DNA of 38,653 nt from a virus. The notes under the pieces are model-generated. The model ran no database searches and was not told where the DNA came from. It saw nothing but the letters and a program-made list of their open reading frames with translations. Within the stretch, counting starts at the first letter, position 1; the number at the start of each line of letters is the position of its first letter. Location: the IMG/VR virus record IMGVR_UViG_3300035034_002507, positions 1-38,653 of that record; one strand, given 5' to 3'. Both the position numbers and the translations under genes were made by a program. Below are positions 9,144 through 37,801 of this stretch, in pieces.

Positions 9144-9196
9144 TGGATGTATTGCCTTTCGTTGGGGGGCATTGCGCCCCTTTATTTGATGAGATC

Positions 9197-9225
9197 ATCA
9201 TATCAATCCCAAGAACTGTTGTATA
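9197..9225 (-). promoter_or_regulatory. Promoter P4: TATACA-17-TATGAT
   Basis: The -35 TATACA (9225-9220) is weak, but the spacer is 17 nt and the -10 TATGAT (9202-9197) has the TTGA extension. The downstream leader, about 45 nt to ATG 9143, contains GAAAGG before the start. Confidence 0.7.
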
Positions 9226-9284
9226 CCTTTTGTTATCCTCGGCGGCCTCATATGTTCCCAGGAGCGCATCTGGACATCATCCAT
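9198..9284 (-). CDS. Possible 28-residue basic peptide
   Basis: ATG 9284 overlaps the end of the preceding small gene by 8 nt, with AAGAGG upstream. The frame ends at a TGA lying inside promoter P4. The product is basic and has no motif. Overlap and ribosome site argue for translation; the tiny size and promoter overlap argue against. Confidence 0.3.
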   Translation of the reverse strand: MDDVQMRSWEHMRPPRITKGIQQFLGLI

Positions 9285-9426
9285 GGCAGCCTCTTGAGTT
9301 CATCGTGGCCATCAAGTCTTTGCGTCCGCAAATGGTGCACTGGACTACATTGGCCGATCGGATTTTGTCTCGGTGTCGAGAGCCACTGGAATGGTTCGTA
9401 ACCCAGGGGATTGGATCTCTAGGCAT
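9277..9426 (-). CDS. 49-residue Cys-containing protein
   Basis: ATG 9426 is preceded by GAGGTGA, a strong ribosome site, and overlaps the previous gene by 8 nt. The C-terminal 20 residues hold CTICGRKD and a further Cys/His (GCHG), forming a small CxxC...CH zinc-binding-like motif. The N-terminal half is basic. Function unknown. Confidence 0.6.
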   Translation of the reverse strand: MPRDPIPWVTNHSSGSRHRDKIRSANVVQCTICGRKDLMATMNSRGCHG

Positions 9427-9580
9427 TGTTGTTCACCTCTGGTTGTCTGGATTTTATCAAGACTTTCCCTGTCGAGGTTGGAGCCGGACCAAAAAGCTCT
9501 AGAGTCCTGGGCTTTTTGTCGCCGCAGATGCAAGTCGGATGGCCCCAGACAAAGACATGAGTTGTTGGGAAGCAATTCAT
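9419..9580 (-). CDS. 53-residue hypothetical protein
   Basis: ATG 9580 overlaps the stop of the previous gene as ATGA. The protein has a hydrophobic/aromatic start (NCFPTTHVFVWGHP), then CICGDKKP, and a basic C-terminal half. A 254-base reading on the same strand in another frame (9345-9599) was rejected in its favour. Function unknown. Confidence 0.6.
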   Translation of the reverse strand: MNCFPTTHVFVWGHPTCICGDKKPRTLELFGPAPTSTGKVLIKSRQPEVNNNA

Positions 9581-11041: not shown

Positions 11042-11650
11042 TCAGACATCCTCGATGTCGAGCTCTTCATCGTCAGAGGACTTGGCCTTCTTGCCCTTCT
11101 TTGCCTTCTTTGCCTTCTTCTTAGGGGCAGGCTTTTCCTCTTCTTCATCTTCATCTTCGTCTTCGTCTTCTTCGTCTTCGTCTTCATCATCCTCCTCGTC
11201 GTCGTCAGACTCTTCGTCTTCGGATTCATCATCTTCTTCGAGGTCATCCTCGTCGAGCTCAGATGCCGGGAAGACGGCGTCGATTTCGGATTGCTCCTTG
11301 CCGTCGTATTCCGTGTCAGCGAGGGTGACTGCGATGATCTTGCCCACAACCTTGTTGGGGTCGACGTTCAGCTTTTTCTTGGGGACGGTCATGCCGGCAG
11401 CAACGAAGAGGTTGCGAACCTTCCAGAGTTGGTTTTCCTGCAGCTTGCAGTAGTAGGGATAGGTACCCGTCCCGACCTTGATCGTGAATAGCCACATTGG
11501 AGTGCCATCGCCCTTCTCCTTGGGCACGGCGTCGGCGACATCGAGGATTTTCGCCTTGTAGTCGCCCTCCTTTTGCCTCTTCTTGTTGAAGTTTCCTCCA
11601 CCATCTTTGACCTTGGACATGTCCAGTTTTTGTGCGGTTGCTTTTGCCAT
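11042..11650 (-). CDS. ssDNA-binding-like recombination protein with acidic/basic tail
   Basis: 202 residues. The first 120 look like a single OB-like domain (GDYKAKILDV, GTPMWLFTIKVGTGTYPYYCKL, ENQLWKVRNLFVAAG, VVGKIIAVTL) as in DUF669-type phage proteins found beside Sak4 ATPases and Cas4-like nucleases. Roughly 50 residues of Glu/Asp/Ser follow, then a Lys/Ala block and a short acidic end. An acidic tail on an ssDNA-binding protein often mediates protein contacts. Start 11650 overlaps the last base of the ATPase frame. The family name is from memory; position and fold give moderate confidence. Confidence 0.65.
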   Translation of the reverse strand: MAKATAQKLDMSKVKDGGGNFNKKRQKEGDYKAKILDVADAVPKEKGDGTPMWLFTIKVGTGTYPYYCKLQENQLWKVRNLFVAAGMTVPKKKLNVDPNKVVGKIIAVTLADTEYDGKEQSEIDAVFPASELDEDDLEEDDESEDEESDDDEEDDEDEDEEDEDEDEDEEEEKPAPKKKAKKAKKGKKAKSSDDEELDIEDV

Positions 11651-12483
11651 TACTTTATAGTTCCTTCACTCATGAGTTTGATCAGTTTCGGGATTTTGGG
11701 GTACTTGATGACAGAGGGTAGATCGAAGTCGCTTCGAAAACCGGTATCTAACCCCTCGTGTACCCCGATGTAAAGCCTTCGTTGTAGCTTTGTCTTTCCT
11801 TTAACCTCTACTTTCTGGGCAGTGATTCGCCCGATCACGTCAACCTGGCCTTCCAGGTCAGCTCTTACACCTTTGGGCAAGTCTGGCACCCAAGTGATAT
11901 CGTTGTCCTCATCGTCAGCGTCATCATCTTCTTCGCCGGATGAGAAGGTTTCGTTGCCCACGATCATTCGTTCTTGAGCAGTGTAAATCTATACCATGGG
12001 CAGCGTTTGGAACTTCTGGAACATTTCCTTCATCAACTCACCTGACTTACCATAGTCGCGTTGCTGAACGAACCCTGGCTGGCGATCAAGATCCCTGTCT
12101 TCTTGAACCTTCATCACATGCTTCAGGCAGATGTTGTTGATCTTGGTCACCCCATCGAGGTTAACGATCGAGAAGGGTTCGTCAGAGTCACCACCGAGAA
12201 CAGCAGGACTGAGTTGACCGGTGCGCAGTGCCCCATAAATCTCATCGAGGTCGGCCCATCGTTCCATCGGCCAAACGTATGGGTTAGCATTCACCATAGC
12301 CTTTGTGCCGGCCTCGGGGTCAATCACCAATGTTTTCTCGATCCCGCCTGAAACCCCGAAGGTTGACTTGCCTCGCTTGTTGCGGCCGTAGATAAGGAAG
12401 CTGAAGTTGGGTGGTAGATCAGCCGGTCGATGAATCTTCTTTTTAGCCACTTCCAAGAAATCCTTCCTATTAACCTTAGCCAT
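11650..12483 (-). pseudogene. Sak4-like RecA-fold ATPase interrupted by an in-frame TAG
   Basis: A single reading frame encodes a typical Sak4/AAA_24-like phage ATPase, but TAG at 11991-11989 interrupts it after residue 164. The upstream part has Walker A GRNKRGKST (33-41) and a Walker B-like FSIVNLD (104-110). Downstream, in the same frame, are IYTAQER (the conserved post-strand motif of this family) and WVPDLPKGVRADLEG, HEGLDTGFRSD and other C-terminal family features. Without the TAG the protein would be about 277 residues. The stop falls in a hydrophobic strand (LPMV-stop-IYTAQER). A T-to-A change from TTG (Leu) would explain it. Alternatives are a sequencing or assembly error, suppression, or two polypeptides using an internal ATG at 11967, which has only a weak ribosome site. 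Neighbours on both sides are recombination proteins. Confidence 0.8.
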
Positions 12484-12656
12484 TATGCCCTTTCTTTCAT
12501 GTGTTGGTAGTTGTCGATGGCCTCATTCAGGTTACCTCGGAGGATACGCAAATTACGATCTGAGCGGGGGTCAGCTAGCTTGTTCCGAGGAGTACCAGTT
12601 TTGTAGTCTCTAAGCATCTTGGCGGCTTTGAGCAAATTATCTTCAGCCTGGTCCAT
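12483..12656 (-). CDS. 57-residue basic helical protein
   Basis: ATG 12656 overlaps the exonuclease stop as TGATG, and its TAA overlaps the ATPase ATG as TAATG. The protein is a predicted helical hairpin with many Lys and Arg (KAAKMLRDYKTG, RSDRNLRILRGNL, NYQHMKERA). It may be an accessory factor for the nuclease or ATPase. Confidence 0.65.
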   Translation of the reverse strand: MDQAEDNLLKAAKMLRDYKTGTPRNKLADPRSDRNLRILRGNLNEAIDNYQHMKERA

Positions 12657-13726
12657 CAGCTTCCTTTCAGTTTGGGGTCGTCATCCTTATAGTAATCGAG
12701 TGGATCACCTTGTGTAAACTGCGATCGTCTGATTTGTTCCCCATTGCCCCCGAACAGTTCGGCAGTACAGAGGTCAGTGTAAGAGCACATGTAAGTGCAG
12801 CTGCGGTCAACTACTCGCTCGACCCCATCAGCATTTTCCCAGTTGTAACTGTGCATCCTCTTATGTGTGGTGTATGCTTCCTGGGCAACCTTCTTGAGCA
12901 TACCTTTGGGCTTCTCAAGCACGACCCGTTGGAAGAATGATGAGACTTGAGGTTCACCATGCCTGTATTGATGGGCCTTGAGTCTGCCAAGCCAGTCTTT
13001 GTAATCTGCCGGGTTCAGCCCATTCACCTGGATGGTTCTGAGCAGGGTGATGTAATCAGTGTCGCACTTGGATTTGCTCAGTCTAGTACCATCTTTGAGC
13101 ATAGCTGGGATTGATGGTGGCTTTGACTTCACATAATTCCAGATGTGACCCTGCACCTCATACTTGTTGAGAAGCGCTGCCCACACATACAATGCTGACT
13201 GCGCATCGAGCAATCTGAAAGTGTTGTCGGGCATCGTTTTGTGATTCTTATGGTCGACGATCCATAGGCCATACTCATTCTCAATGAGCATATCAACCTT
13301 GCCCCTATACAGGGCCCCGTCAGGCAACTCGACCTCGAGCAAGAACTCAGTCTCAAGAATCTTCCAGTCATCATGCTGGTAATGCCAGAGGTAGGCATCC
13401 ATTGTTCGTTTGCAGTCACCGGGTAGGTCGCCCAGCTCAGCTCGTTCTTCTTCGAAGAAACCCTTGAACCGCTTGGTATTCCGTGCGTGAATGGCTTTCC
13501 AATCGCCACCCTTGTGATGCTCTTCGTAGAGTTCGTGCATCCATGTGCCAAATCGGAGCGGTCGTCCCAGCATCTTAGGCTTGAGGCGCTCAACGTATTT
13601 GTACTGGGCTTGCTTGGGGCACCGGCGCATCGTCTTGAGCATCGAGTGGGTTGAGATCACTTGGCCCGTATCAGGGTCGACATATAATCCGAGAGCTGCA
13701 AGTTTAGAGGTAGGTGTTTTTCCCAT
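12656..13726 (-). CDS. Cas4-like PD-(D/E)XK exonuclease with Fe-S cysteines
   Basis: 356 residues. It has the RecB/Cas4 nuclease core: H64 in WMHELYEEH, D145 in YRGKVDML, and D158-x-K160 in WIVDHKNHK. A cysteine at 36 (RRCPKQ) and three at 310, 314 and 320 (CTYMCSYTDLC) match the four ligands of the 4Fe-4S cluster in Cas4/AddB-type nucleases. It probably resects DNA ends for single-strand annealing together with the Sak4-like ATPase and ssDNA-binding protein downstream. The start follows AGAAAGGGCACC and promoter P6. A stand-alone nuclease of this kind is typical of phages and is not evidence for CRISPR. Confidence 0.85.
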   Translation of the reverse strand: MGKTPTSKLAALGLYVDPDTGQVISTHSMLKTMRRCPKQAQYKYVERLKPKMLGRPLRFGTWMHELYEEHHKGGDWKAIHARNTKRFKGFFEEERAELGDLPGDCKRTMDAYLWHYQHDDWKILETEFLLEVELPDGALYRGKVDMLIENEYGLWIVDHKNHKTMPDNTFRLLDAQSALYVWAALLNKYEVQGHIWNYVKSKPPSIPAMLKDGTRLSKSKCDTDYITLLRTIQVNGLNPADYKDWLGRLKAHQYRHGEPQVSSFFQRVVLEKPKGMLKKVAQEAYTTHKRMHSYNWENADGVERVVDRSCTYMCSYTDLCTAELFGGNGEQIRRSQFTQGDPLDYYKDDDPKLKGS

Positions 13727-13966: not shown

Positions 13967-14115
13967 AACTCCCCCCCATCTAATTCTAGGTGATTGGTAA
14001 TGTGCTCAAGTATCAAACTTTGTTGCTCAATAACTTCTACAGCTTGGGCCAAGACCTGCTTCATCTGAGCCAGTTGTTCTTTGATCTGACGAATCTCGAT
14101 CGATTCATTTCTCAT
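13963..14115 (-). CDS. 50-residue coiled-coil protein
   Basis: ATG 14115 overlaps the thyX stop as ATGA, and the TGA overlaps the next GTG. Heptad-like spacing (IEIRQIKEQLAQMKQVLAQAVEVI) predicts one continuous coiled coil, so it probably acts as a dimer or oligomer. Function unknown. Confidence 0.65.
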   Translation of the reverse strand: MRNESIEIRQIKEQLAQMKQVLAQAVEVIEQQSLILEHITNHLELDGGEL

Positions 14116-14825
14116 GGTGCTACTCGTCCATTTCTGCAGAAGGCCTCGTGGGTTATGGGCATGTGTAGAGCAAAGGCCGCTTCAAGTTGCTTGGCTACAT
14201 CATGGATTTCTTGCATTGGTGTGGATGGAAAAGTGCCCTCATCGAGCGTACGGAGCGACAAGAACGCCATCAATGAGCGAGCATTGCATGTTGCAAACAT
14301 ACGGCTATAGAGACCGACTGGGAGCACTGCACGGGCAACCTCATTCGCAATACCATCAGCCCTCATTTCCTGATAGACACGGTAAGCGATGGTGTAAACC
14401 TGCTCCATTCTATCAATAGTCCTCATCCATTGTTCATCTGAGCCCTTGACGAATGTATAGCTACCAGGTTTGCCTTCTTGAACCATCTTGCGATTGCTGT
14501 CGGGAACCCAGAACTCAGGGGGCAGCTCGCCATAGCGGCCAGATTGCTCATTGTAAGACCACCCGATCCGATGTCGATGGAACTCACGGAAGATGAAGAT
14601 TGGGGCCTTAACGTAGAATTGGAACTGGTTATGCTCAAAAGGTGACCCGTGCCTCTTTTCCATTAGGTAGTTGATTCGGCCAGGTGTAGCTGGCTCACTA
14701 GCTAACCCGAGAGCAACTTCAGGATCGGTGCTAACTAGCATAGCCCTAATCACCATGCCATCAGTGGCCAAGTGATCGACCAGGCGACCCTCAACTTCTG
14801 GGGTGGATATAATTGGCTGGGTCAT
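14112..14825 (-). CDS. thyX: Flavin-dependent thymidylate synthase ThyX
   Basis: 237 residues. It converts dUMP to dTMP using methylene-tetrahydrofolate, NADPH and FAD. The signature is at 84-98, RHRIGWSYNEQSGRY. That is one residue longer than the usual RHR-x7-S spacing, a variant that would be worth checking in an alignment. SPFEHNQFQFYVK upstream and the C-terminal SLMAFLSLR/AVLPVGLYS segments also fit ThyX. It supplies thymidylate directly behind the DNA polymerase gene. The start follows AGAAAGAAGCTAAT and overlaps the end of the polymerase region by a few bases of ribosome site. Confidence 0.92.
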   Translation of the reverse strand: MTQPIISTPEVEGRLVDHLATDGMVIRAMLVSTDPEVALGLASEPATPGRINYLMEKRHGSPFEHNQFQFYVKAPIFIFREFHRHRIGWSYNEQSGRYGELPPEFWVPDSNRKMVQEGKPGSYTFVKGSDEQWMRTIDRMEQVYTIAYRVYQEMRADGIANEVARAVLPVGLYSRMFATCNARSLMAFLSLRTLDEGTFPSTPMQEIHDVAKQLEAAFALHMPITHEAFCRNGRVAP

Positions 14826-14826
14826 A

Positions 14827-17415
14827 TTAGCTTCTTTCTGGGAGGATGAGGTCCCGGGTTGCTTTGTCGAAGTTGTAAATTTGATCGGTGGTTAGCTCGG
14901 TAGCCCCACCCCAGTGCGACCCCACCTGAAGATCGCTGATTATGGGCACGGTAACCTCGGCCCCAAACAGTTCCTTGAATGGCAGGTTTTCCATGGTGTC
15001 TTTAATCATCGGCAGGGCTCGGGGCAGGTCGGGTATGTAGCATTCGAGGTTCACGGCATCATGGACTACACCCAATACATGCGCTCGTAGGCCCATCGCT
15101 TTGAGGTTTTGGTTGATGAGAATACCAGATAGGGTGTTCATATCTGAGCCCATGGCCTGTACTGGTGAGTTGATGGCTTGTCGCTCAGCTTCCATGACCA
15201 CCGATTGAACTTCAGAATAGATGTCGGGCAAATGTCGAATGCGGCCCAGGGGTGAGACGACTCGACCATTCTGGTGTGCGATTCGTTTTTGCCTAGTGTG
15301 CCATTTCTGCAAGCCAGGGAATTCACGGAAGTAGGTTTTGCGGAAGTGCTCAGCTTGCTGCAGGGTATAAACCATTTGCTGCTGCTCCCACATCGTGATA
15401 ACAAACTTCTTGGGATACATCCCATAGAGGAAGCCGAAGTTGGTGGGCTTGCCTACCTCTTTTCGTTGAGCCTTAGTGACTTGGCTATCTGGGATACCAA
15501 GGGCCCGAGCAGCAATGTAGATATGGAGGTCGGCACCCATGGCGAATAGTTGGAGCATGGTAGGCTCACGGGCGATATATGCTCCCAGCCGAAGCTCAAC
15601 TTGGCTGAAGTCTGCTTCAATGAATGCCCAACCTGGTGGTGCCCCGAATAAGCCACGAATAAACGGATCTCGTGGGACCTGCTGGAGATTGACGCCACGA
15701 CCTCGGTCGGCTCGTGAGGAGATCTTTTCATCATCAGCCTTACCAGAGGACATTCGCCCCGTAACTGTGCCAGCAATCTTGAAAGTGGTGTGGATACGGT
15801 GATTCTCATCCATGATCTCCTTGTAGCGGTTAACATAAGTACTGCAGTATTTCTGCCACTTAGCCCGTTCTAACAATAGATCAATCACTGGGTGCCCAGT
15901 CTCACGCAGCATGAACATAACACCCTCACGCATTGATGGGTCGCCAGGACTGCCATCAGCCTTCGTCTTACCCCGCTCATAGATAGGCAACCCAAGGTGT
16001 TCAAATAGCCACCATCGAGCAAAGTTGCTGGGGTTAAAGTTAACCTCGACTGGCTTGATGGTTTTGCCTTTGGTTGGCCAGGGCTCGTTAGACTGAGCGT
16101 GTAGGGAAGACCCAGGACTTGCCGGATCAGGCACCCATTGCATCAGCTGCTCGTCGATGTGATCTCGCGTGTCGAATGCTATCTTATGGGCAGTGTCGAG
16201 CTTTTCACGGTCGACCCAGATTCCATGCTGCTCAACTTCTCGAAGAAGGGGGCTAGCTGGCATTGTGACTCGCATGAACAGCTTAAGTAGTCTGGGTTGG
16301 TCGATGAGATCTTTTCGCAGATGGGTCCACAGAAGGAACGTATAGTAGGTATCGAGGGCATTGTAAAGCAAAACTTCCTTGAGGGGCGTGTCGATCAGAT
16401 TCTTGGTTGAGATGGCCCATTCGCCCACACCCAGGATTACTCGGGCAAGAGGTTTCAAGCCCTTCTCACGGTTTTCATCGAGGATGTGAGCAGCGAGCAT
16501 GGTGTCGAAAGTAACATCCATGGGCACCCCATGCTTGTGCAACCAGCGATCATCGAACTTACCGTTGTGAGCCAGCTTGCGGTGGGGCTTAATCATGCCC
16601 GGCTTGACATACTGTAGAACTTTACGCCAGTTCAGTCGGAAGGGGGATTGAGGGTGCCAGAGGGGTAAGGCCCAAATCGTAACCGTACCATCTTCGATTG
16701 ATTGCCCCTTATCCCTGTGTAAGAGAGTGAATGCCACTGAGACAATCGCCCCATCGGGGTCGAACTCATCGAAGCCGGTTGTTTCAATATCATAAGATAC
16801 AGTGTCGGCCGTGGCCAGTGCCTCTTTCAGTAAAGGTAGGTGATCTTTTTTCCAGGCAACCGTGATCTTAGGTCGCTCTGAGGCCACATTGCTATGGATG
16901 CCCTTGGTGGCATTAGCGAAGAACTTAAGATCAGCTCGCCAGGCAGGCTCTTGTCGAGGGTTACGCATAACCGCAGCGGGGCTGATGGTGGCGAACATAC
17001 TAGCACCGGGCACGGCTTTGGCCTCGATGACCTTACCTCGCCACTTCATGATGCCTGAGTGACCACTCAATTCCTTCAGCGGCTCATTACCGAAAGCCAA
17101 GATAAACTCAGGCTTAACCCATGCAAGTTCATCCGCTAGGTACGGGGCGCAGGCTACAAACTCAGGCTTGCGGGGCTCGACATCGAACGAGCGGCACTTG
17201 ATGACCGAGGTGAAATAGATCTCATTGACATCCAACCCAGCATTCGTCAACGCTGCTTCGAGGTAAGTTTGATAGGACCCCGAGTTGGGCATCCTAGATA
17301 CGACCATGATTTTACTGCGTCGAGGTCCAATACCAGGTTCGCAGACATTCTCAGTCTCGAGGTGAAGTTTGCATCGTGTGCAACCTGGGTCGTTAAGTAC
17401 TAGTGAACGGGGCAT
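14827..17415 (-). CDS. UDG-like / 3'-5' exonuclease / DNA polymerase I fusion
   Basis: 862 residues from ATG 17415 (TAATG overlap; the 17514 start would overlap the leaderless gene). Residues 1-165 resemble a family 4 uracil-DNA glycosylase, with four cysteines (12, 15, 74, 89) spaced like its 4Fe-4S ligands. The catalytic motifs look lost: SRMPN replaces the GEAPG-type loop and SPA replaces HPS/HPA. A DnaQ-like exonuclease follows (D209-x-E211, AHNGKFDDRW at 282-291, YNALD at 351-355). The polymerase has motif A DFSQVELRL (602-610), motif B ending GKPTNFGFLYG (655-665) and motif C VVHDAVNLE (783-791). Alanine 787 stands where E. coli Pol I has Glu883. This is the replicative polymerase. The N-terminal domain may bind template uracil or a modified base rather than excise it. 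Confidence 0.9.
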   Translation of the reverse strand: MPRSLVLNDPGCTRCKLHLETENVCEPGIGPRRSKIMVVSRMPNSGSYQTYLEAALTNAGLDVNEIYFTSVIKCRSFDVEPRKPEFVACAPYLADELAWVKPEFILAFGNEPLKELSGHSGIMKWRGKVIEAKAVPGASMFATISPAAVMRNPRQEPAWRADLKFFANATKGIHSNVASERPKITVAWKKDHLPLLKEALATADTVSYDIETTGFDEFDPDGAIVSVAFTLLHRDKGQSIEDGTVTIWALPLWHPQSPFRLNWRKVLQYVKPGMIKPHRKLAHNGKFDDRWLHKHGVPMDVTFDTMLAAHILDENREKGLKPLARVILGVGEWAISTKNLIDTPLKEVLLYNALDTYYTFLLWTHLRKDLIDQPRLLKLFMRVTMPASPLLREVEQHGIWVDREKLDTAHKIAFDTRDHIDEQLMQWVPDPASPGSSLHAQSNEPWPTKGKTIKPVEVNFNPSNFARWWLFEHLGLPIYERGKTKADGSPGDPSMREGVMFMLRETGHPVIDLLLERAKWQKYCSTYVNRYKEIMDENHRIHTTFKIAGTVTGRMSSGKADDEKISSRADRGRGVNLQQVPRDPFIRGLFGAPPGWAFIEADFSQVELRLGAYIAREPTMLQLFAMGADLHIYIAARALGIPDSQVTKAQRKEVGKPTNFGFLYGMYPKKFVITMWEQQQMVYTLQQAEHFRKTYFREFPGLQKWHTRQKRIAHQNGRVVSPLGRIRHLPDIYSEVQSVVMEAERQAINSPVQAMGSDMNTLSGILINQNLKAMGLRAHVLGVVHDAVNLECYIPDLPRALPMIKDTMENLPFKELFGAEVTVPIISDLQVGSHWGGATELTTDQIYNFDKATRDLILPERS

Positions 17416-17639
17416 TACTTGATCATCACTGAGTTGGCAGTTATGGGTTGAATGGAGATACGGCCTGGGTTCATCACGGCGACGATCTGGAATGCCCCGA
17501 GTGAGTCGACCCAAGTGATTCGCCAGATACGGTTGCCATCAGGGTCGCCAATTGTGAGACTACTGAAAGCAACATCGGGAGCGTTGTGTCGTTTGATGAC
17601 CGCCCGTCGCTTCGATTTCGGTGCATCAATATAAGCCAT
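17415..17639 (-). CDS. Small basic hypothetical protein, leaderless
   Basis: 74 residues. ATG 17639 is 6 nt after the -10 of promoter P7, so the transcript should start at the initiation codon. Its N-terminus is basic (KSKRRAVIKRH) and the rest looks like a small beta domain. The stop overlaps the polymerase start as TAATG, so it is co-translated with the polymerase. Family unknown. Confidence 0.7.
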   Translation of the reverse strand: MAYIDAPKSKRRAVIKRHNAPDVAFSSLTIGDPDGNRIWRITWVDSLGAFQIVAVMNPGRISIQPITANSVMIK

Positions 17640-17645
17640 GTCATC

Positions 17646-17674
17646 ATCATATCATTCTAGCATTTCCAGGTCAA
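17646..17674 (-). promoter_or_regulatory. Promoter P7: TTGACC-17-TATGAT
   Basis: TTGACC (17674-17669), 17-nt spacer ending GAATGA, TATGAT (17651-17646). It overlaps the last codons of the dCMP deaminase gene. The start codon is 6 nt downstream. It drives the polymerase and thyX operon. Confidence 0.85.
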
Positions 17675-18086
17675 TTCCGGCGGACCTCAATAATTCTAGC
17701 CCTGCATGATCTCTATAGTCATTGAGATAGACGACTTTAGCAATCCCAGAATTGACGGCAAGCTCAGCGCACTTTCGGCAAGGTAGGTGTGTGCAATATA
17801 GCGTAGCCCCGTCAACAGCGATTCCATATCTGGCGGCGTAGGCAATACAATTCGACTCAGCGTGAACTGAGGACTTGCACCCCCCATTTGTGCCTGCATG
17901 ACACTCGTCACCGCAGTGAGGTAATCCGGCGGGAGCTCCGTTATAGCCGGTGACAAGAATGCGACCATCTCTTGCAATCGCTGCTCCAACGTGAGCACGT
18001 CGGCAAGTACTCCTCTCGGCAAACAATTGGGCGACATCCATGCAGAGTTGATCCCTGCCAATTCTAGGGTCATACGCCGGCTCCAT
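17652..18086 (-). CDS. dCMP deaminase
   Basis: 144 residues from ATG 18086, placed by AGGAGGAAGAAT; an upstream reading from 18113 is less likely. It deaminates dCMP to dUMP, the ThyX substrate. The zinc-binding and catalytic motif H75-A-E77 and P102-C103-x2-C106 are present. The insert with HCGDECHAGTNGGC is typical of phage and bacterial dCMP deaminases, where it binds a structural zinc. It overlaps the ThyA-fold gene upstream by 17 nt. Confidence 0.93.
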   Translation of the reverse strand: MEPAYDPRIGRDQLCMDVAQLFAERSTCRRAHVGAAIARDGRILVTGYNGAPAGLPHCGDECHAGTNGGCKSSVHAESNCIAYAARYGIAVDGATLYCTHLPCRKCAELAVNSGIAKVVYLNDYRDHAGLELLRSAGIDLEMLE

Positions 18087-18885
18087 ATTCTTCTTCCTCC
18101 TGGTAGTCCTCAATTAGCTTTCGGATCATCGGGCCATCCCCCTCGAAGCAATGGAGGGAAGTCATGTGCATATGCAGTGATGACGCTCGCACTGTGATCC
18201 CGTTTCCCTGCAGTATCCCTACGACCCACTGAAGCAATCTTGCGGCCATATAAGCGTCATCTTTGAGGTGGCGCATGATGTCACAAGAACGCATGAAGTA
18301 GACAATGGTGGCCAAATTGTCACGGATGATGAACTGATAACCCAGGGTGCATGGCACTCGTTGACCCTGAACTGAGCCCGTATCTTCAGGAAACCATATA
18401 GGGAGATAAGCTTGACGAGTGTGAGGATTCCTGAGCAACATGTTGACCACATCGGCCAGGTCGCCATAGTCGTACCGGATGCCCATGTTGGGGAATTTCG
18501 GGTCGGTGACAGCCAGCTTTGGCCAAATTCGCTCAGGGTAGGTGTGGGAGAATATCTCGCCCTCTTTGTGTTCCTTGTTACCGTTTTGGTGGAAGGGCCA
18601 CCATGCCTCAGAAGGTGGAGGGTTCAATGGTTCACCCCCGACTCGTTCTTGGAAATGATCTTCAGCCCAAGGCAGATTCGGATTATAGTAAGCTTGAGTT
18701 CGTTCGAGCATATCCACACCAGGGGTAGGGACATCCAGGGTGATAGCTTCATTCATCAACTCGTAGGTTATGCTCATCGGGTGGTCATGGCCGGGCTGAG
18801 ATTGCCATTCACCAACATGAACTCTGCGGCCATTTCGATCCATGCGGTAGATCAAATCCATGTACCACTCAGGTTCAGTCTTCAT
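18070..18885 (-). CDS. ThyA-fold pyrimidine hydroxymethylase-like protein
   Basis: 271 residues from ATG 18885 (11-nt overlap). Catalytic Cys179 in RVPC sits exactly 20 residues before R199-S-C-D202, as C146 and R166 do in E. coli ThyA. Asp210 lies at R+11, where ThyA has Asn177, the residue that reads the pyrimidine base. His240 falls at R+41 as His207 does. In dCMP hydroxymethylases, and in engineered thymidylate synthases, Asp at this site switches recognition from uracil to cytosine. The protein may therefore make 5-hydroxymethyl-dCMP or a related nucleotide. The rest is strongly diverged. ThyX is encoded nearby, so a second dTMP synthase would be redundant. Confidence 0.72.
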   Translation of the reverse strand: MKTEPEWYMDLIYRMDRNGRRVHVGEWQSQPGHDHPMSITYELMNEAITLDVPTPGVDMLERTQAYYNPNLPWAEDHFQERVGGEPLNPPPSEAWWPFHQNGNKEHKEGEIFSHTYPERIWPKLAVTDPKFPNMGIRYDYGDLADVVNMLLRNPHTRQAYLPIWFPEDTGSVQGQRVPCTLGYQFIIRDNLATIVYFMRSCDIMRHLKDDAYMAARLLQWVVGILQGNGITVRASSLHMHMTSLHCFEGDGPMIRKLIEDYQEEEEYGAGV

Positions 18886-19918
18886 CGTCGAGAATCTTTC
18901 TGCTGGGTGCGGTTGACGGCACATAGTCGGGGGATGAATATTCACCGGGTGCTCGAGGAAGCATGATTCCTGAGAGGTCGAGCTGGTCGATGGTTATGGA
19001 CTCGAGAGGCTGGTAGGCTTTGAAGTATTCTTTTTGTTCCCCCGTCTTAGCCCCCTTCTTGTAGTAAGACCAGCCCTCAAATTCCTGAGCCCGCTCATAC
19101 CCCAGCACCTCAGTATGGTAGCGTCGACGAATGCGGCGATAGGTGTTGTATGTCATGTCACCCAGGGTCTTGCCCTGCTGATCCATGAGGATCATTTTCT
19201 GAAGCCATTGCCGAGTCATGGTTAGGGCCGGCCGTTCAGCGATGTAATCCCAGTCACCCTCATCACGAAGCTTGGTCTCGCTAAACCGCAACCACCGACG
19301 GTATTGCTTCCTCAGTTTGGGGTCAGGGTGATTAAGCAGGTAGGCCATCGACTTGAAGTTGTGGTACTGGGCAGCCTCATTCAGCCAGACGAACTCGAAG
19401 TCTGCAACGTCGCAGCCCAGCTCGTCCGCAAGATAGCTAGCGCACATCCAAGCAACGCTGAGGTCCAAACCGGAAAGGTACCCAAGATAGCTTGTCCGGC
19501 TATGTAATGTAATCTGGGGGCGAGGAGTGGCTCGGTATGTTATAGTCTTGATACAACCGCCCCACCGTCGTGATTCCTTGTTTCCAAAAGCTGCGCCCCC
19601 TCGGGATTTGACCTGATTGAGCTCGAGCAAAGCTTGCCCCCTGCCCTTGAGCCCGATGTACCTGGTCGCATTTTCCAGCCACTTGAGCAGATTTTCTCGT
19701 GGGATGTATTGTCGAACCATCATGGTCCATCGACTCGGCGTCAACCAAAGATTCTTGAGATCGAAATCCCATTCCATTGATGGTGTGGTAGCTATGGCAT
19801 GATGAATCTGAACATCGACCGAGCTGATGTAATCGAGCTTGGGTGCCTTGGCATGGATGAGTGACCGGCACATCTTGTCATGCAGCTCGGTCAGGGTATC
19901 TGCTTGGTAAGTTCTCAT
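18875..19918 (-). CDS. Second, divergent ThyA-superfamily-like protein
   Basis: 347 residues; ATGA overlap sets the start at 19918. The core around 120-190 follows thymidylate synthase. Cys122 (WGGC) precedes R141 by 19 residues. R141-T-S-Y fills the RSCD slot, and Asp152 lies at R+11, the Asn177 position. A VADFEFVWLNEAAQYH segment matches the GDF-VW...H segment of ThyA. The C-terminal 150 residues are Arg/Tyr-rich and not ThyA-like. I infer a partner or alternative substrate enzyme for the adjacent ThyA-fold protein. The assignment comes from motif spacing only, and there is weak overall similarity. Confidence 0.55.
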   Translation of the reverse strand: MRTYQADTLTELHDKMCRSLIHAKAPKLDYISSVDVQIHHAIATTPSMEWDFDLKNLWLTPSRWTMMVRQYIPRENLLKWLENATRYIGLKGRGQALLELNQVKSRGGAAFGNKESRRWGGCIKTITYRATPRPQITLHSRTSYLGYLSGLDLSVAWMCASYLADELGCDVADFEFVWLNEAAQYHNFKSMAYLLNHPDPKLRKQYRRWLRFSETKLRDEGDWDYIAERPALTMTRQWLQKMILMDQQGKTLGDMTYNTYRRIRRRYHTEVLGYERAQEFEGWSYYKKGAKTGEQKEYFKAYQPLESITIDQLDLSGIMLPRAPGEYSSPDYVPSTAPSRKILDDED

Positions 19919-20430
19919 CCGTTAGCTTCTCTCTTGTTATAAACGTAGCTATTACTGCAGCCCAAGCAACAGAATTTCATGAGTGTGAAGTCGATCATCC
20001 GGTCCCAGAGCAACTTCTCATCAGCTTCGGCCAGATCGGTGTGGCACCAAGGGCACTTGCCCGTCACCCCATCATAACCTTCGATCTGTCGTTGAGCATT
20101 CTTTTTTCGCTTGGCAAGATATTTTTCACTGATGGCATCGGCTAAGTTCTCAGCATCTGTCGTCTCATCCCCAGCAACCAAGATCAGATTCAAGAAGAAG
20201 TGAAGAGCATCAACTATCTCGCTTAGATATCGGTCTTGGTTGATGTGATCTGAGCTAGCCCAGGGCTTCCACCCCGTTTCATCTAGGGCTTCGGTCAGCT
20301 CAGTGATGAGTGCCGTGTGCATCTGAGACAAAAATCGCATCTTGTCATCGGGGCTCATGGTTCGAGGGCTACCCCCCATGTGCTTGACTTGTAAATCCTC
20401 CTGCAGTTTCAGGAATGTTGTTAGCTGCAT
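19915..20430 (-). CDS. All-alpha NTP pyrophosphatase (dUTPase/dCTPase-like) with zinc ribbon
   Basis: 171 residues. The metal-binding signature E44-x2-E47 ... E71-x2-D74 matches dimeric dUTPase/MazG-like all-alpha NTP pyrophosphatases, a family that includes phage enzymes acting on dUTP and dCTP. It would hydrolyse a canonical dNTP to the dNMP, feeding the ThyA-fold enzymes and keeping the base out of phage DNA. A C-terminal ribbon (C126, C129, C154 or C155, C158) is an addition to the usual fold. It overlaps the kinase by 10 nt and the next gene by 4 nt. Confidence 0.78.
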   Translation of the reverse strand: MQLTTFLKLQEDLQVKHMGGSPRTMSPDDKMRFLSQMHTALITELTEALDETGWKPWASSDHINQDRYLSEIVDALHFFLNLILVAGDETTDAENLADAISEKYLAKRKKNAQRQIEGYDGVTGKCPWCHTDLAEADEKLLWDRMIDFTLMKFCCLGCSNSYVYNKREANG

Positions 20431-20984
20431 TGGTTTGCCCTTTCTAGGCGTTCGATGTCTTCAACAAGTTCGCTGAAGTCCATGGTGGTGTAATCCCACA
20501 CCAAGATATTCCGGTCTTGATGGGTCATGGGATAGGGGTTATTGTTGGCGAGCCAGGCATGGTAATACCAGTAGTATACCTCAATGTTCTCAACCGGGAA
20601 ATCATCCTGGGCCATGTTCAGTACAACAGTCTCGAGGGGTGGCATACAGATGATGACTATGGGCTTCTGCATCCAGAACTTCTTGATCTGGTGAGTTAGC
20701 CACCTTAGGCTGTCGAAGCCTTCTGGGAATTTCTGCCTGAGGGTTGGGCCGTAGATACATTCTGAGATGAGAGCATGTCGGTCATAAATGATCTCACCCC
20801 CATCAGCCTTGTATATATTCCTTTCTTCTTGAACCCACTCGGCCATAGGCACCAAGTGCTTGGTATCACTACCAGTCGACCTTGGCCTAACCTTGAGGTC
20901 TGGCATCAACTCACATAGCCGAGAAATTACGTGAGTTTTACCTGACCCATCAACCCCCTCCACTACGATCATCATCTTGAGCAT
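20421..20984 (-). CDS. Deoxynucleoside monophosphate kinase (thymidylate kinase-like)
   Basis: 187 residues. The P-loop is GVDGSGKT (10-17), followed by YDRHALISECIYG, which resembles the DRY/DRH segment of thymidylate kinases. It transfers phosphate from ATP to a dNMP. In this context it may phosphorylate dTMP and a modified dNMP made by the ThyA-fold proteins. It is the first gene of the operon from promoter P8, with AAAGAAGGGAT before ATG 20984. Confidence 0.83.
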   Translation of the reverse strand: MLKMMIVVEGVDGSGKTHVISRLCELMPDLKVRPRSTGSDTKHLVPMAEWVQEERNIYKADGGEIIYDRHALISECIYGPTLRQKFPEGFDSLRWLTHQIKKFWMQKPIVIICMPPLETVVLNMAQDDFPVENIEVYYWYYHAWLANNNPYPMTHQDRNILVWDYTTMDFSELVEDIERLERANQCS

Positions 20985-21058: not shown

Positions 21059-22588
21059 CTAGGGTCGGAAGTTTCGGAGAAGTCGATGAGGACTGGCTTG
21101 AATCATTTTAACGATGTCCCCATCAGTCTGCAGTGCTTCAAACATAAGCTCGTCATAGGTACCCTCGCCCAACAAGTAGTAGAATCGGTTAGCTTTACCA
21201 GACAGGGCGATTCGGTCCAGCGATTGACTGTAATCGACGAAGCTATTAACGAGGCTATACCACACCATCGTCGATGCAGTTCGGAGGTCAATCCCGAGTG
21301 AGCCGGCTTGAGGGTTCATAATGAAGGCTGCGGCAGTGTCGCATTCACGAAACCCCTTGATAGCCGCCTGTCGCTCAGCAGGCTTCATTCCGCCCTGTAG
21401 TAGGAAGACCTTAGGCTTGCTTGAGTATCCCTCAATCATCTTGGCAATCGAGGCGATGTCAGCCCTGAAGCGGGCGCAAATAACCACCTTCTCATCTTGC
21501 TCCATCCAATCATGCATCAGATCGTCAAGGTAACGAAGCTTCTCTTTGCCTACTCTGACCCATCGTCCTTCGGGATGTTCGAGGGTGGGTGAGGTTTTGG
21601 CGAGACCGGAGGTAATCTGGGCGAAACGCAAGTTCTGCACCAGCTTGATCGAGGCTTCGGTGTATTCTCCCGACTCAATGCGAGCCACCATCTCTTCTGC
21701 CATGTCATCATAAATCTTAGCCGTTTCTTCTAGAGGTACCTTGATAATCTTGGGTGGAAAGTTTGCCGGCAGATCGAAGCATTCATCTCGAGCAACTGCG
21801 AATGCCTCTTTGTGGAGTTTCTTTCGTAGCTTGGGTTCGTTCTTGACCCCGATGAATTGTGAGAATCCATTGCGTTCTAGGAATCGGCCATATTCACCTT
21901 TGAACTCAGCCAAGTTCATGCCGGCGATCAGGGGAGATTGTGGATTCAGAAACTTCCATTGACTGAAGAGGTCAAAGACTCGCTTAGCCTTCGTCACTGC
22001 TGTACCCGTTGCAATGATGCGGTAGTCGGCATGAGGGCCGATCGAGTGGAGGGCTCTAGATTTCATGGCCGAAGTACTCTTAATGCGGTGGCTCTCATCA
22101 AGCACGATCAGGTGTGGATTCCATGCGATGATCTTCTTCTTGATGGTGTATCTTCCACCACGTGATTTAGATCTTCGACCCGTGTCTATGCCGCCTTTGA
22201 TAATTTTAGCTCCTGGCGTTGACAAGGCATCAAAGTTCATGATGACAAAGTCAAGCTGAGAGCCCCCATACCTGGGCAACTCGAATCGCTTTCGACCTCG
22301 CTTATCCCACATGGTTATCCGGTAATTGACTGGGCAATGAATGGCGATCTCATCGACCCACACCTCCATGACTGAGACCGGGCAAACAATGAGTACTCTG
22401 CTGGCTTTACCTCGTTGGTGCAGGATTGACGCCCAGTCGATACACACCTTGGTCTTGCCCGTTCGAGGTTCCATCAATAGGGCCCCGCCGTCAGTACCCT
22501 TCTCGATAAGGTACTTCAGGGCTGCGACTTGGTGCTTATAGGGTTTCGTCTTGAATCGGTAAGTATCCCGGTTTTTAGTGCTTGTCAC
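21059..22588 (-). CDS. SNF2-family DNA helicase/translocase
   Basis: 509 residues from GTG 22588. Superfamily 2 motifs are present: Q-like KPYKHQ at 15-20, Walker A PRTGKT (41-46), DESH (164-167), ATGTAV, and in the second domain VVICARFRADI, LLQGGM, NPQAGSLGIDLRTAS, and Q/D-rich YSQSLDRI. These fit the small SNF2-type helicases common in siphoviruses. It probably acts in replication or recombination by moving along double-stranded DNA. The small membrane protein gene overlaps its start by 14 nt. Confidence 0.9.
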   Translation of the reverse strand: MTSTKNRDTYRFKTKPYKHQVAALKYLIEKGTDGGALLMEPRTGKTKVCIDWASILHQRGKASRVLIVCPVSVMEVWVDEIAIHCPVNYRITMWDKRGRKRFELPRYGGSQLDFVIMNFDALSTPGAKIIKGGIDTGRRSKSRGGRYTIKKKIIAWNPHLIVLDESHRIKSTSAMKSRALHSIGPHADYRIIATGTAVTKAKRVFDLFSQWKFLNPQSPLIAGMNLAEFKGEYGRFLERNGFSQFIGVKNEPKLRKKLHKEAFAVARDECFDLPANFPPKIIKVPLEETAKIYDDMAEEMVARIESGEYTEASIKLVQNLRFAQITSGLAKTSPTLEHPEGRWVRVGKEKLRYLDDLMHDWMEQDEKVVICARFRADIASIAKMIEGYSSKPKVFLLQGGMKPAERQAAIKGFRECDTAAAFIMNPQAGSLGIDLRTASTMVWYSLVNSFVDYSQSLDRIALSGKANRFYYLLGEGTYDELMFEALQTDGDIVKMIQASPHRLLRNFRP

Positions 22589-23174: not shown

Positions 23175-23227
23175 GAGTGATCCATTCACAAAGGCAATTC
23201 CGCCCTACCACAAGGAGAAACAATCAC

Positions 23228-23779
23228 ATGGCACGTAAAAAGGCTGCTAAGGTTGAAGAAGTCGAAGACCTGGAACTCGACGAGCTCGAAGACATCGAGG
23301 AAGAGCTCGAAGAAGACGATGACGACGTCGAGGAAGAGGAAGAGGAAGAGGAAGCACCCAAGCCGAAGGCCAAGGCAAAGGCAAAGAAGGCTGCTGAGCC
23401 GGAGATCTGGGGAGTTCGCAACCTCTGCGATCTGCTCAAGGAAAAGACCGGCAAAGACTACCAGCCCCGTGAGGTTCGCAACCTGCTCCGCAAGATGGCA
23501 AAGGAAGACAACGCCCGAGTCGATCGTGAAGTCATTGCGGGCAACAAGGCTCGCTACGAATGGACCGGGCCGAAGGACCCCGAGGTCAAGGCGATCCTCA
23601 AGGCAGTGACCGGGGGCGAGATCGAGGATGCGAAGAATGCTACCCTCGCCAAGCTCAAGGCTGACAAGGCTGCCAAGGCCGCCAAAAAGGACAAGACCGA
23701 AGGCAAGAAGGGCAAATCCAAGACCAAGAAGGCCGCTCCTCCCATCGACGACGATGATGAGGACGAAGACGAGGACTGA
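23228..23779 (+). CDS. Acidic/basic predicted DNA-binding protein, only plus-strand gene
   Basis: 183 residues from ATG 23228, with AAGGAG about 8 nt upstream; the 23177 start is rejected. The N-terminal 45 residues are mostly Glu and Asp. A Lys/Ala linker and a compact domain at about 60-130 follow (IWGVRNLCDLL, PREVRNLLRKM, GNKARYEW), which resembles a winged helix. Then come a long Lys/Ala-rich helix and an acidic end. It resembles the gene at 7877-8338 in layout. It might be a nucleoid-like protein, an anti-silencer or a control protein. It is isolated, with its own promoter and terminator. Confidence 0.72.
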   Translation: MARKKAAKVEEVEDLELDELEDIEEELEEDDDDVEEEEEEEEAPKPKAKAKAKKAAEPEIWGVRNLCDLLKEKTGKDYQPREVRNLLRKMAKEDNARVDREVIAGNKARYEWTGPKDPEVKAILKAVTGGEIEDAKNATLAKLKADKAAKAAKKDKTEGKKGKSKTKKAAPPIDDDDEDEDED

Positions 23780-34719: not shown

Positions 34720-35467
34720 CTACCGACCCTGTCGGAATGACTTGTATCTTTTCTCCACCGGCAAATCAAGAAGTTCTCCCAACCTCTTATTGCGGTTCTG
34801 CTGTCTATCTTCAGGCTTCTTGCCTTTGTCACCAGCCTCATCTATCTGATTCTCAACATATGTACCCCAGATGTAGATAACTTCATCTAGGCAATAGCTG
34901 AGATAGGCATCGGTGAGCCCGATCAATTCACTTGGTCGAGTGCTCCACATTTTCGAGCGTTGAAACAAATTCCATGTTGCGCTCCTGTCGCTCACGAAAA
35001 GCCTCAAGGTCTCGCGTACCGCCAACCGCGTACTGCCAGATAAAGATCTTATCGTCCAGGTCAACCTCATCAACATAGAGAAATACCCGATCGGGGCTCA
35101 TGTCCCGGTCCTCATTGGGGGGGTCATGCTTCACGATCGGGCTAATGAGACACTCAACTACAATGAGGTCAATGAAGTCCATGATCGCACCCAGCTTCTC
35201 TGGGTCCATCTCGACATCAGCCATCATCTCTTCGGGTGTGGGTGCCTTCTTGGGGTCACTCATGGCCTTCTTCACAATGGCCAAAAGGTTGTTAGGGATC
35301 TTGTTCTTAGCGATCAACACCTTCATGCTGGTAGGCTTTACCAGGCATGTGTTGCCGCTTGGGACGTCCAGGGGAGTTCCGTCACTTGACGCTTTGCGCC
35401 ATTGTCCAGCTGTAGTAACTGGGGAACTCCCCTGGTCGGCGGATGGGGGTGGCATTTCAGTATTCAT
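34720..35467 (-). CDS. Tail assembly chaperone, long form by predicted +1 (or -2) frameshift
   Basis: The upstream frame (35467-34928, 179 residues) and an overlapping frame that continues to 34720 together look like the G/GT pair of other siphoviruses. After the shift the product carries STRPSELIGLTDAYLSYC, DEVIYIWGTYV and a basic KKPEDRQQNRNKRLGEL tail. The second frame is +1 relative to the first, and the -1 frame closes within about 20 bases. The shift must occur before the TGA at 34930-34928, probably between 34950 and 34928. An ATG at 34950 could start the second frame alone, but has no clear ribosome site. The exact slippery codon is not identified. Confidence 0.65.
34928..35467 (-). 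CDS. Tail assembly chaperone, short form
   Basis: 179 residues from ATG 35467 with AGGAGG upstream, immediately before the tape measure gene. The family's position is diagnostic. The protein has an N-terminal acidic/Pro segment, KVLIAKNKIPNNLLAIVKKAM, and a helical body with AIMDFIDLIVVECLISPI and KIFIWQYAVGG, as in gpG-type chaperones. It coats the tape measure during tail assembly. Confidence 0.78.
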   Translation of the reverse strand: MNTEMPPPSADQGSSPVTTAGQWRKASSDGTPLDVPSGNTCLVKPTSMKVLIAKNKIPNNLLAIVKKAMSDPKKAPTPEEMMADVEMDPEKLGAIMDFIDLIVVECLISPIVKHDPPNEDRDMSPDRVFLYVDEVDLDDKIFIWQYAVGGTRDLEAFRERQERNMEFVSTLENVEHSTK

Positions 35468-37402: not shown

Positions 37403-37801
37403 CTACCTCTTCAGGATTCCCGCTTGACTTCTGTCCCAGTGGCGATGAGAAACGAACATCACTCTATAGTCGCCGTCATCTAGCGGGCCGTCGATAGAAG
37501 TGATGTAATCTCCCTCAGCGATGTTTGAATCTTCCTTGATGTAAGTGAAGATGTAATCCACCAGCTGCGTTCGATCTTCGCCGAAACTTTGAGGGTTGTA
37601 GTTGTCCTCTTCAGTGAGTCGTCGCTTCATCGGAACAAAGTAAAACTTCTGATCTTCGATGACCAGAGTACCTGTCCTGACCACACCGCCTGAAGAGCTT
37701 GTCGAGGTGATAGGTCGTGTGATATCAACGACGACGGGGTCTTGATTGATAAACCAGCGCAGAAGGTTAGTTCGAAGCTTTCGTTCAGTCAGGGCCCCCA
37801 T
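37403..37801 (-). CDS. Head-closure (stopper) protein
   Basis: 132 residues, TAATG overlap upstream. The strand-rich pattern with VVRTGTLVIEDQKFYFVPMKRR, GDYITSIDGPLDDGDYRVMFVSHRHWDRSQ matches phage head-tail stopper proteins such as gp7/gp16-type. It seals the connector. Assignment by position and pattern. Confidence 0.65.
   Translation of the reverse strand: MGALTERKLRTNLLRWFINQDPVVVDITRPITSTSSSGGVVRTGTLVIEDQKFYFVPMKRRLTEEDNYNPQSFGEDRTQLVDYIFTYIKEDSNIAEGDYITSIDGPLDDGDYRVMFVSHRHWDRSQAGILKR

Follow-up and report, generated by a model that had tools for sequence, protein, structure and literature searches.

The window analysed here is the whole of the IMG/VR virus record IMGVR_UViG_3300035034_002507, a stretch of 38,653 bases with a G+C content of 52% and almost all of its genes on the minus strand. 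On this strand, positions 12483-11650 form a frame of 278 codons, which begins with an ATG at 12483 and closes with a TAA ending at 11650. It consists of a 5' part of 164 codons (11992-12483), one in-frame amber stop TAG as codon 165 (11991-11989), the only internal TAG of the frame, and a 3' part of 112 sense codons, which starts with IYTAQER and, together with the TAA, occupies 11650-11988. At both ends the frame overlaps the adjoining gene by one base, as in a tightly packed operon. At the 3' end this overlap has the form TAATG, the ATG being the start of a gene for a putative ssDNA-binding partner whose tail is long and acidic (11042-11650, minus strand; phrog_3724/phrog_14876). Curtobacterium phage Shrew has in the corresponding position a gene annotated as "SBB protein", and from this synteny together with the acidic tail the product is SSB-like, with ssDNA binding as its predicted activity. 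On the 5' side, the ATG overlaps a small ORF taken from the ORF listing (12483-12656, minus strand), for which the family search gave no match, and further upstream lies an intact Cas4/RecB-like PD-(D/E)XK exonuclease gene (12656-13726, minus strand; phrog_1218, E 1.6e-73; PDDEXK_1). Very long acidic runs combined with Lys/Ala-rich tails occur in the products of both 11042-11650 (minus strand) and 23177-23779 (plus strand), and the poly-Ser ORFs opposite these two genes are composition artefacts.

Two other regions of the window deserve mention in their own right. Positions 14112-20984 (minus strand) hold an island of nucleotide-metabolism genes. Two of its products are of the thymidylate-synthase type but unrelated to each other, namely ThyX (14112-14825) and a ThyA-family protein (18070-18945); besides these there are a dCMP deaminase, a dUTPase/MazG-like protein and a thymidylate-kinase-like protein. 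The island also encodes a 347-residue protein (18875-19918; phrog_13667, function not assigned) that is well conserved, with 58-69% identity in all of the seven nearest relatives, and as a whole it might hint at thymine or uracil in a modified form. Furthermore, in the region 34720-35467 the gene of a tail assembly chaperone (34928-35467, minus strand) is overlapped by an ORF in another frame (34720-35076), an arrangement typical of programmed frameshift pairs, which makes the two genes a candidate for such a pair.

The original prediction regarded the frame before and after the TAG as one continuous Sak4-like ATPase, and the profile searches bear this out. The two parts match consecutive stretches of the Sak4-like family phrog_124, the 5' part positions 31-161 (E 7.8e-20) and the 3' part positions 171-255 (E 8.6e-12), and when joined they match positions 31-255 with E 1.1e-37. 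Pfam AAA_24 is likewise matched across both parts, with positions 4-120 falling to the 5' part. The latter contains a Walker A motif GRNKRGKS (residues 33-40) and a Walker-B-like strand ending in LDG (residues 109-111), and the claim that the downstream part carries the TAQER motif and runs into the next gene by one base is equally correct. A structure model of the read-through protein, in which Val was placed at the stop, reached a mean pLDDT of 91.5, and among solved structures the Sak4 from phage 52A (PDB 8rc5; TM 0.80 by target length) matches it best, followed by RecA proteins. As in the Sak4 family (phrog_124, AAA_24, phage 52A 8rc5, HK620 Sak4), a Walker A motif within a RecA-type ATPase core, a RecA-like fold and an adjoining SSB-like gene are present, the latter in line with the description of Sak4 phages with a linked SSB gene (PMC5928155). 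What sets the present gene apart is that the frame is interrupted by the amber at codon 165. Judged by these matches, 12483-11650 is a complete gene for a Sak4-type RecA-like ATPase with one internal stop, for which annealing activity is predicted.

The order exonuclease, Sak4 and SSB-like protein is also found in cultured Microbacterium, Curtobacterium, Mycobacterium and Gordonia phages, and with Microbacterium phage Huwbert, Curtobacterium phage Shrew and Gordonia phage Cozz the present record shares the longer order exonuclease, Sak4, SSB-like and VRR-Nuc. The Sak4 proteins of these three actinophages are 42-50% identical to the present one over the full length and their genes are uninterrupted, whereas the present gene is split. 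Moreover, ahead of the second strand the present Sak4 and its nearest IMG/VR clade have additional residues, GALRTG..L.P, which the named actinophages lack. Profile searches of IMG/VR yielded 75 and 65 loci, the second set largely repeating the first, with the nearest relatives at 55-57% identity, and no Sak4 relative above about 57% was found. Single-sequence IMG/VR searches with the present Sak4 and Pol proteins gave no matches, and an exact-pattern search of IMG/VR across the stop site revealed no second copy of the same phage, although this search may have passed over nearly identical records. A scan of genome contigs added one further, phage-like contig with a Sak4 relative (51% identity), the 60.9-kb QHXS01000048.1 (L152), which is binned in a MAG of Acidobacteria gp4 and resembles the IMG/VR phage of locus L014. 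It is probably a mis-binned phage or else a hint to a host outside the Actinobacteria.

The sequence beyond the stop is in nearly the same state as the sequence before it. The codon-usage score amounts to 0.37 bits per codon after and 0.41 before the stop, all other frames scoring below 0, and both parts are equally similar to their relatives. Since the downstream part has homology and a codon score like the upstream part, it is not a chance open frame. Over the whole protein, 40 of the 43 positions at which at least 95% of the relatives agree are kept, and the three losses (K37R, Y221T, Y245L) are inside the range of the relatives, in its upper tenth. An ancient pseudogene is ruled out by the intact codon usage and the even conservation of both parts. 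The codon signature and the retention of nearly all conserved residues downstream indicate instead a stop that arose recently, is an artefact or is tolerated via read-through. Compared with its neighbours, Sak4 is slightly less clade-like (ratio 0.87-0.90 versus 0.93-1.01), a weak hint that is too weak to use.

At the stop site itself, 83 relatives could be compared, of which 10 are cultured phages and about 73 are IMG/VR loci. None of them, all at most about 57% identical, has a stop at this site or anywhere else in the matched region, so that homologues with the same stop, which would have favoured programmed read-through, were not encountered. Residue 165 is Val in 44 and Ile in 17 relatives (61 of 83 together), followed by Gly (6), Thr (5), Leu (5), Lys (2) and others found once each, and the TAG thus replaces a codon that is mostly Val or Ile and has no conserved counterpart of its own. 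The nearest clade (47-57% identity) shows the pattern Met/Ile, then Asn/His/Gly, then Val, against which the present sequence reads Met-Val-stop; hence codon 164 is atypical as well. Leu by TTG, one base away from TAG, had been suggested as the original codon. Such an origin is possible, but with Leu in only five of the 83 relatives, Val or Ile prevailing and an unusual preceding codon, the suggestion is a weak one. Only two relatives carry a codon that a single change would turn into TAG; two changes are needed in 24 and three in 57. A single-base nonsense mutation is possible if an ancestor not seen among the relatives had Leu or Lys at the site; a more complex local change or an error is just as conceivable, and the odd codons 164 and 165 are also compatible with compensating one-base indels.

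How common such stops are in comparable contigs was surveyed for the exonuclease, polymerase, VRR nuclease, primase-helicase, dCMP deaminase and Sak4 families, with up to 79 relatives each and about 129,000 residues. No internal stop was found in the conserved cores of these families, and the few stops recorded (polymerase, nuclease, SSB-like proteins) are located at protein ends or within the variable acidic tail. Internal stops are rare events in contigs of this kind, and this rarity fits mutation and error alike.

With regard to the genetic code, TAG terminates 7 of the 60 listed ORFs, among them the primase-helicase (741-2768), an SNF2-type helicase (21059-22588) and the gene at 37403-37801, all three of which stop at a length that agrees with their relatives. 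TAG can thus be taken, on gene lengths, to be an ordinary terminator in the present genome, as originally proposed, and this conclusion stands on these three genes and not on the example chosen at the time, ORF 9419-9580, which has no family match and no coding signature. This ORF is located in the stretch 9144-9576 between two genes, likewise without family match, which is possibly non-coding or a degraded gene. The sak4 TAG is the only in-frame TAG found in conserved genes, and among extensions past the other TAG stops (scored if at least 15 codons long) none has a coding signature, in contrast to the Sak4 extension. ARAGORN detected no tRNA, including any suppressor with a CTA anticodon, in the contig, which may be incomplete. 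The coding density is a normal 0.89, whereas in table-15 phages read with the standard code about 67-69% of the sequence is coding (PMC11210395). An in-frame TAG within a conserved gene is the one feature shared with amber-recoded (code 15) phages, and it would be expected if the phage read TAG as an amino acid throughout; none of the further marks of such phages, namely many in-frame TAGs, TAG unused as terminator and a suppressor tRNA, was found. The natural TAG ends of at least three conserved genes, the lack of a tRNA in the contig and the coding density rule out reassignment of the genetic code, and we regard the probability of a code 15-like phage as close to negligible, in agreement with the early view that reassignment is unlikely.

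It is more difficult to dispose of read-through of the single stop by a near-cognate tRNA or a host amber suppressor, which would give a little full-length Sak4 besides a 164-residue fragment. Up to the true gene end, the frame after the stop stays open, resembles coding sequence and is conserved, and at least some phages need Sak4 (PMC5499656). On the other hand, neither of the marks of programmed read-through is present: the stop is common to no relative, and the 103 nt after it form no significant stable structure (z -1.2), nor does the stop site match a structured RNA or intron in Rfam. The clean gene ends at other TAGs and the missing suppressor tRNA in the contig speak against read-through as well. 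In the model, strand 164-175 is a confident core strand that bears TAQER and has codon 165 as its second residue, and such a core strand would be an unlikely site to accept any inserted residue. Read-through at some rate, in favour of which nothing speaks apart from the intact downstream frame, is therefore considered unlikely, and it is still more improbable that the amber is fixed in the phage species and read through by host or phage for a low, regulated amount of full-length Sak4. We know of no earlier case of a regulated stop in a phage annealing protein.

The model bears likewise on a two-chain enzyme, whose halves would be made separately and then assemble. Both halves remain conserved, as such an enzyme would demand, but the break would fall at the first residues of strand 164-175, and no relative among the 83 is split. 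Moreover, the only good ATG downstream of the break (11967) comes after TAQER and is not preceded by a clear Shine-Dalgarno sequence, and an ATT start right after the stop would be rare. Two chains are thus very unlikely, even more so than a regulated amber.

Taken together, the evidence makes the amber in sak4 appear a one-time mutation or a mistake in the sequence, and not a novel mode of decoding. That the stop is unprogrammed is supported by the absence of stops in the 83 relatives and in the cores of neighbouring gene families, the genes that end properly in TAG, the lack of tRNA and Rfam matches, the coding density and the predicted core strand. From this it is highly probable that the amber arose without programming and is confined to this one sequence, as a recent nonsense allele or as a wrong consensus; of the four options put forward originally, the evidence favours these two. 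We infer recency, loss of function and lack of programming alike. The gene would then be an ordinary gene for a Sak4 single-strand annealing ATPase within the usual operon of exonuclease, Sak4 and SSB-like protein, in which the amber would have arisen as a recent nonsense change or as a locally wrong consensus in a metagenome assembly. If the stop is real, ribosomes would halt after residue 164, and the resulting chain would retain Walker A and B, but according to the model neither strand 164-175 with TAQER nor the four later strands of the sheet. Lacking these, the fragment would be inactive. The next gene (11042-11650) would retain its own start, Sak4 would be lost in the present phage, and the host RecA pathway or nothing would substitute for it.

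Between the two origins, a real recent loss-of-function mutation in the sampled phage has a probability only slightly short of even. Against a null allele it can be argued that the downstream part is undecayed, since a long-standing null gene would have decayed, and that a simple one-base nonsense leaves the departure of codon 164 unexplained. In addition, deletion of sak4 in the staphylococcal phage phi11 reduces plaques to <10 pfu/ml (PMC5499656), and as Sak4 is required there for plaque formation, a real null should be costly, with the proviso that this is another phage. An error in sequence or assembly only, with sak4 intact in the real phage, is tentatively placed somewhat below the real mutation. 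The source is a single metagenome-derived contig, neither codon 164 nor the adjoining codon 165 is typical, as would result from a local mis-assembly or a pair of small indels, and the rest of the gene is intact. However, no other conserved gene among those of the record with family matches is disrupted, and together with the lack of internal stops in the counterparts of these genes in up to 79 relatives this argues for a low background error rate in such contigs.

A damaged allele could even be selected, as sak4 mutations in a lactococcal phage permit growth on AbiK cells, according to work cited in PMC5499656, and Sak4 is also the target of SaPI2 Stl2 (PMC11846896). The present gene has a changed sak4 in common with AbiK/AbiA escape mutants, whereas there is no evidence of such a defence in its host. 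These examples are established, but they concern other phages and are no argument about the present one. As it stands, the amber carries little weight beyond the caution that one bad or mutated codon can split a metagenomic phage gene into two ORFs. It would matter more if the stop were fixed in the population, because AbiK, AbiA and SaPI2 Stl2 are known to target Sak4, and a Sak4 that is tuned or lost would then suggest escape from anti-phage defence.
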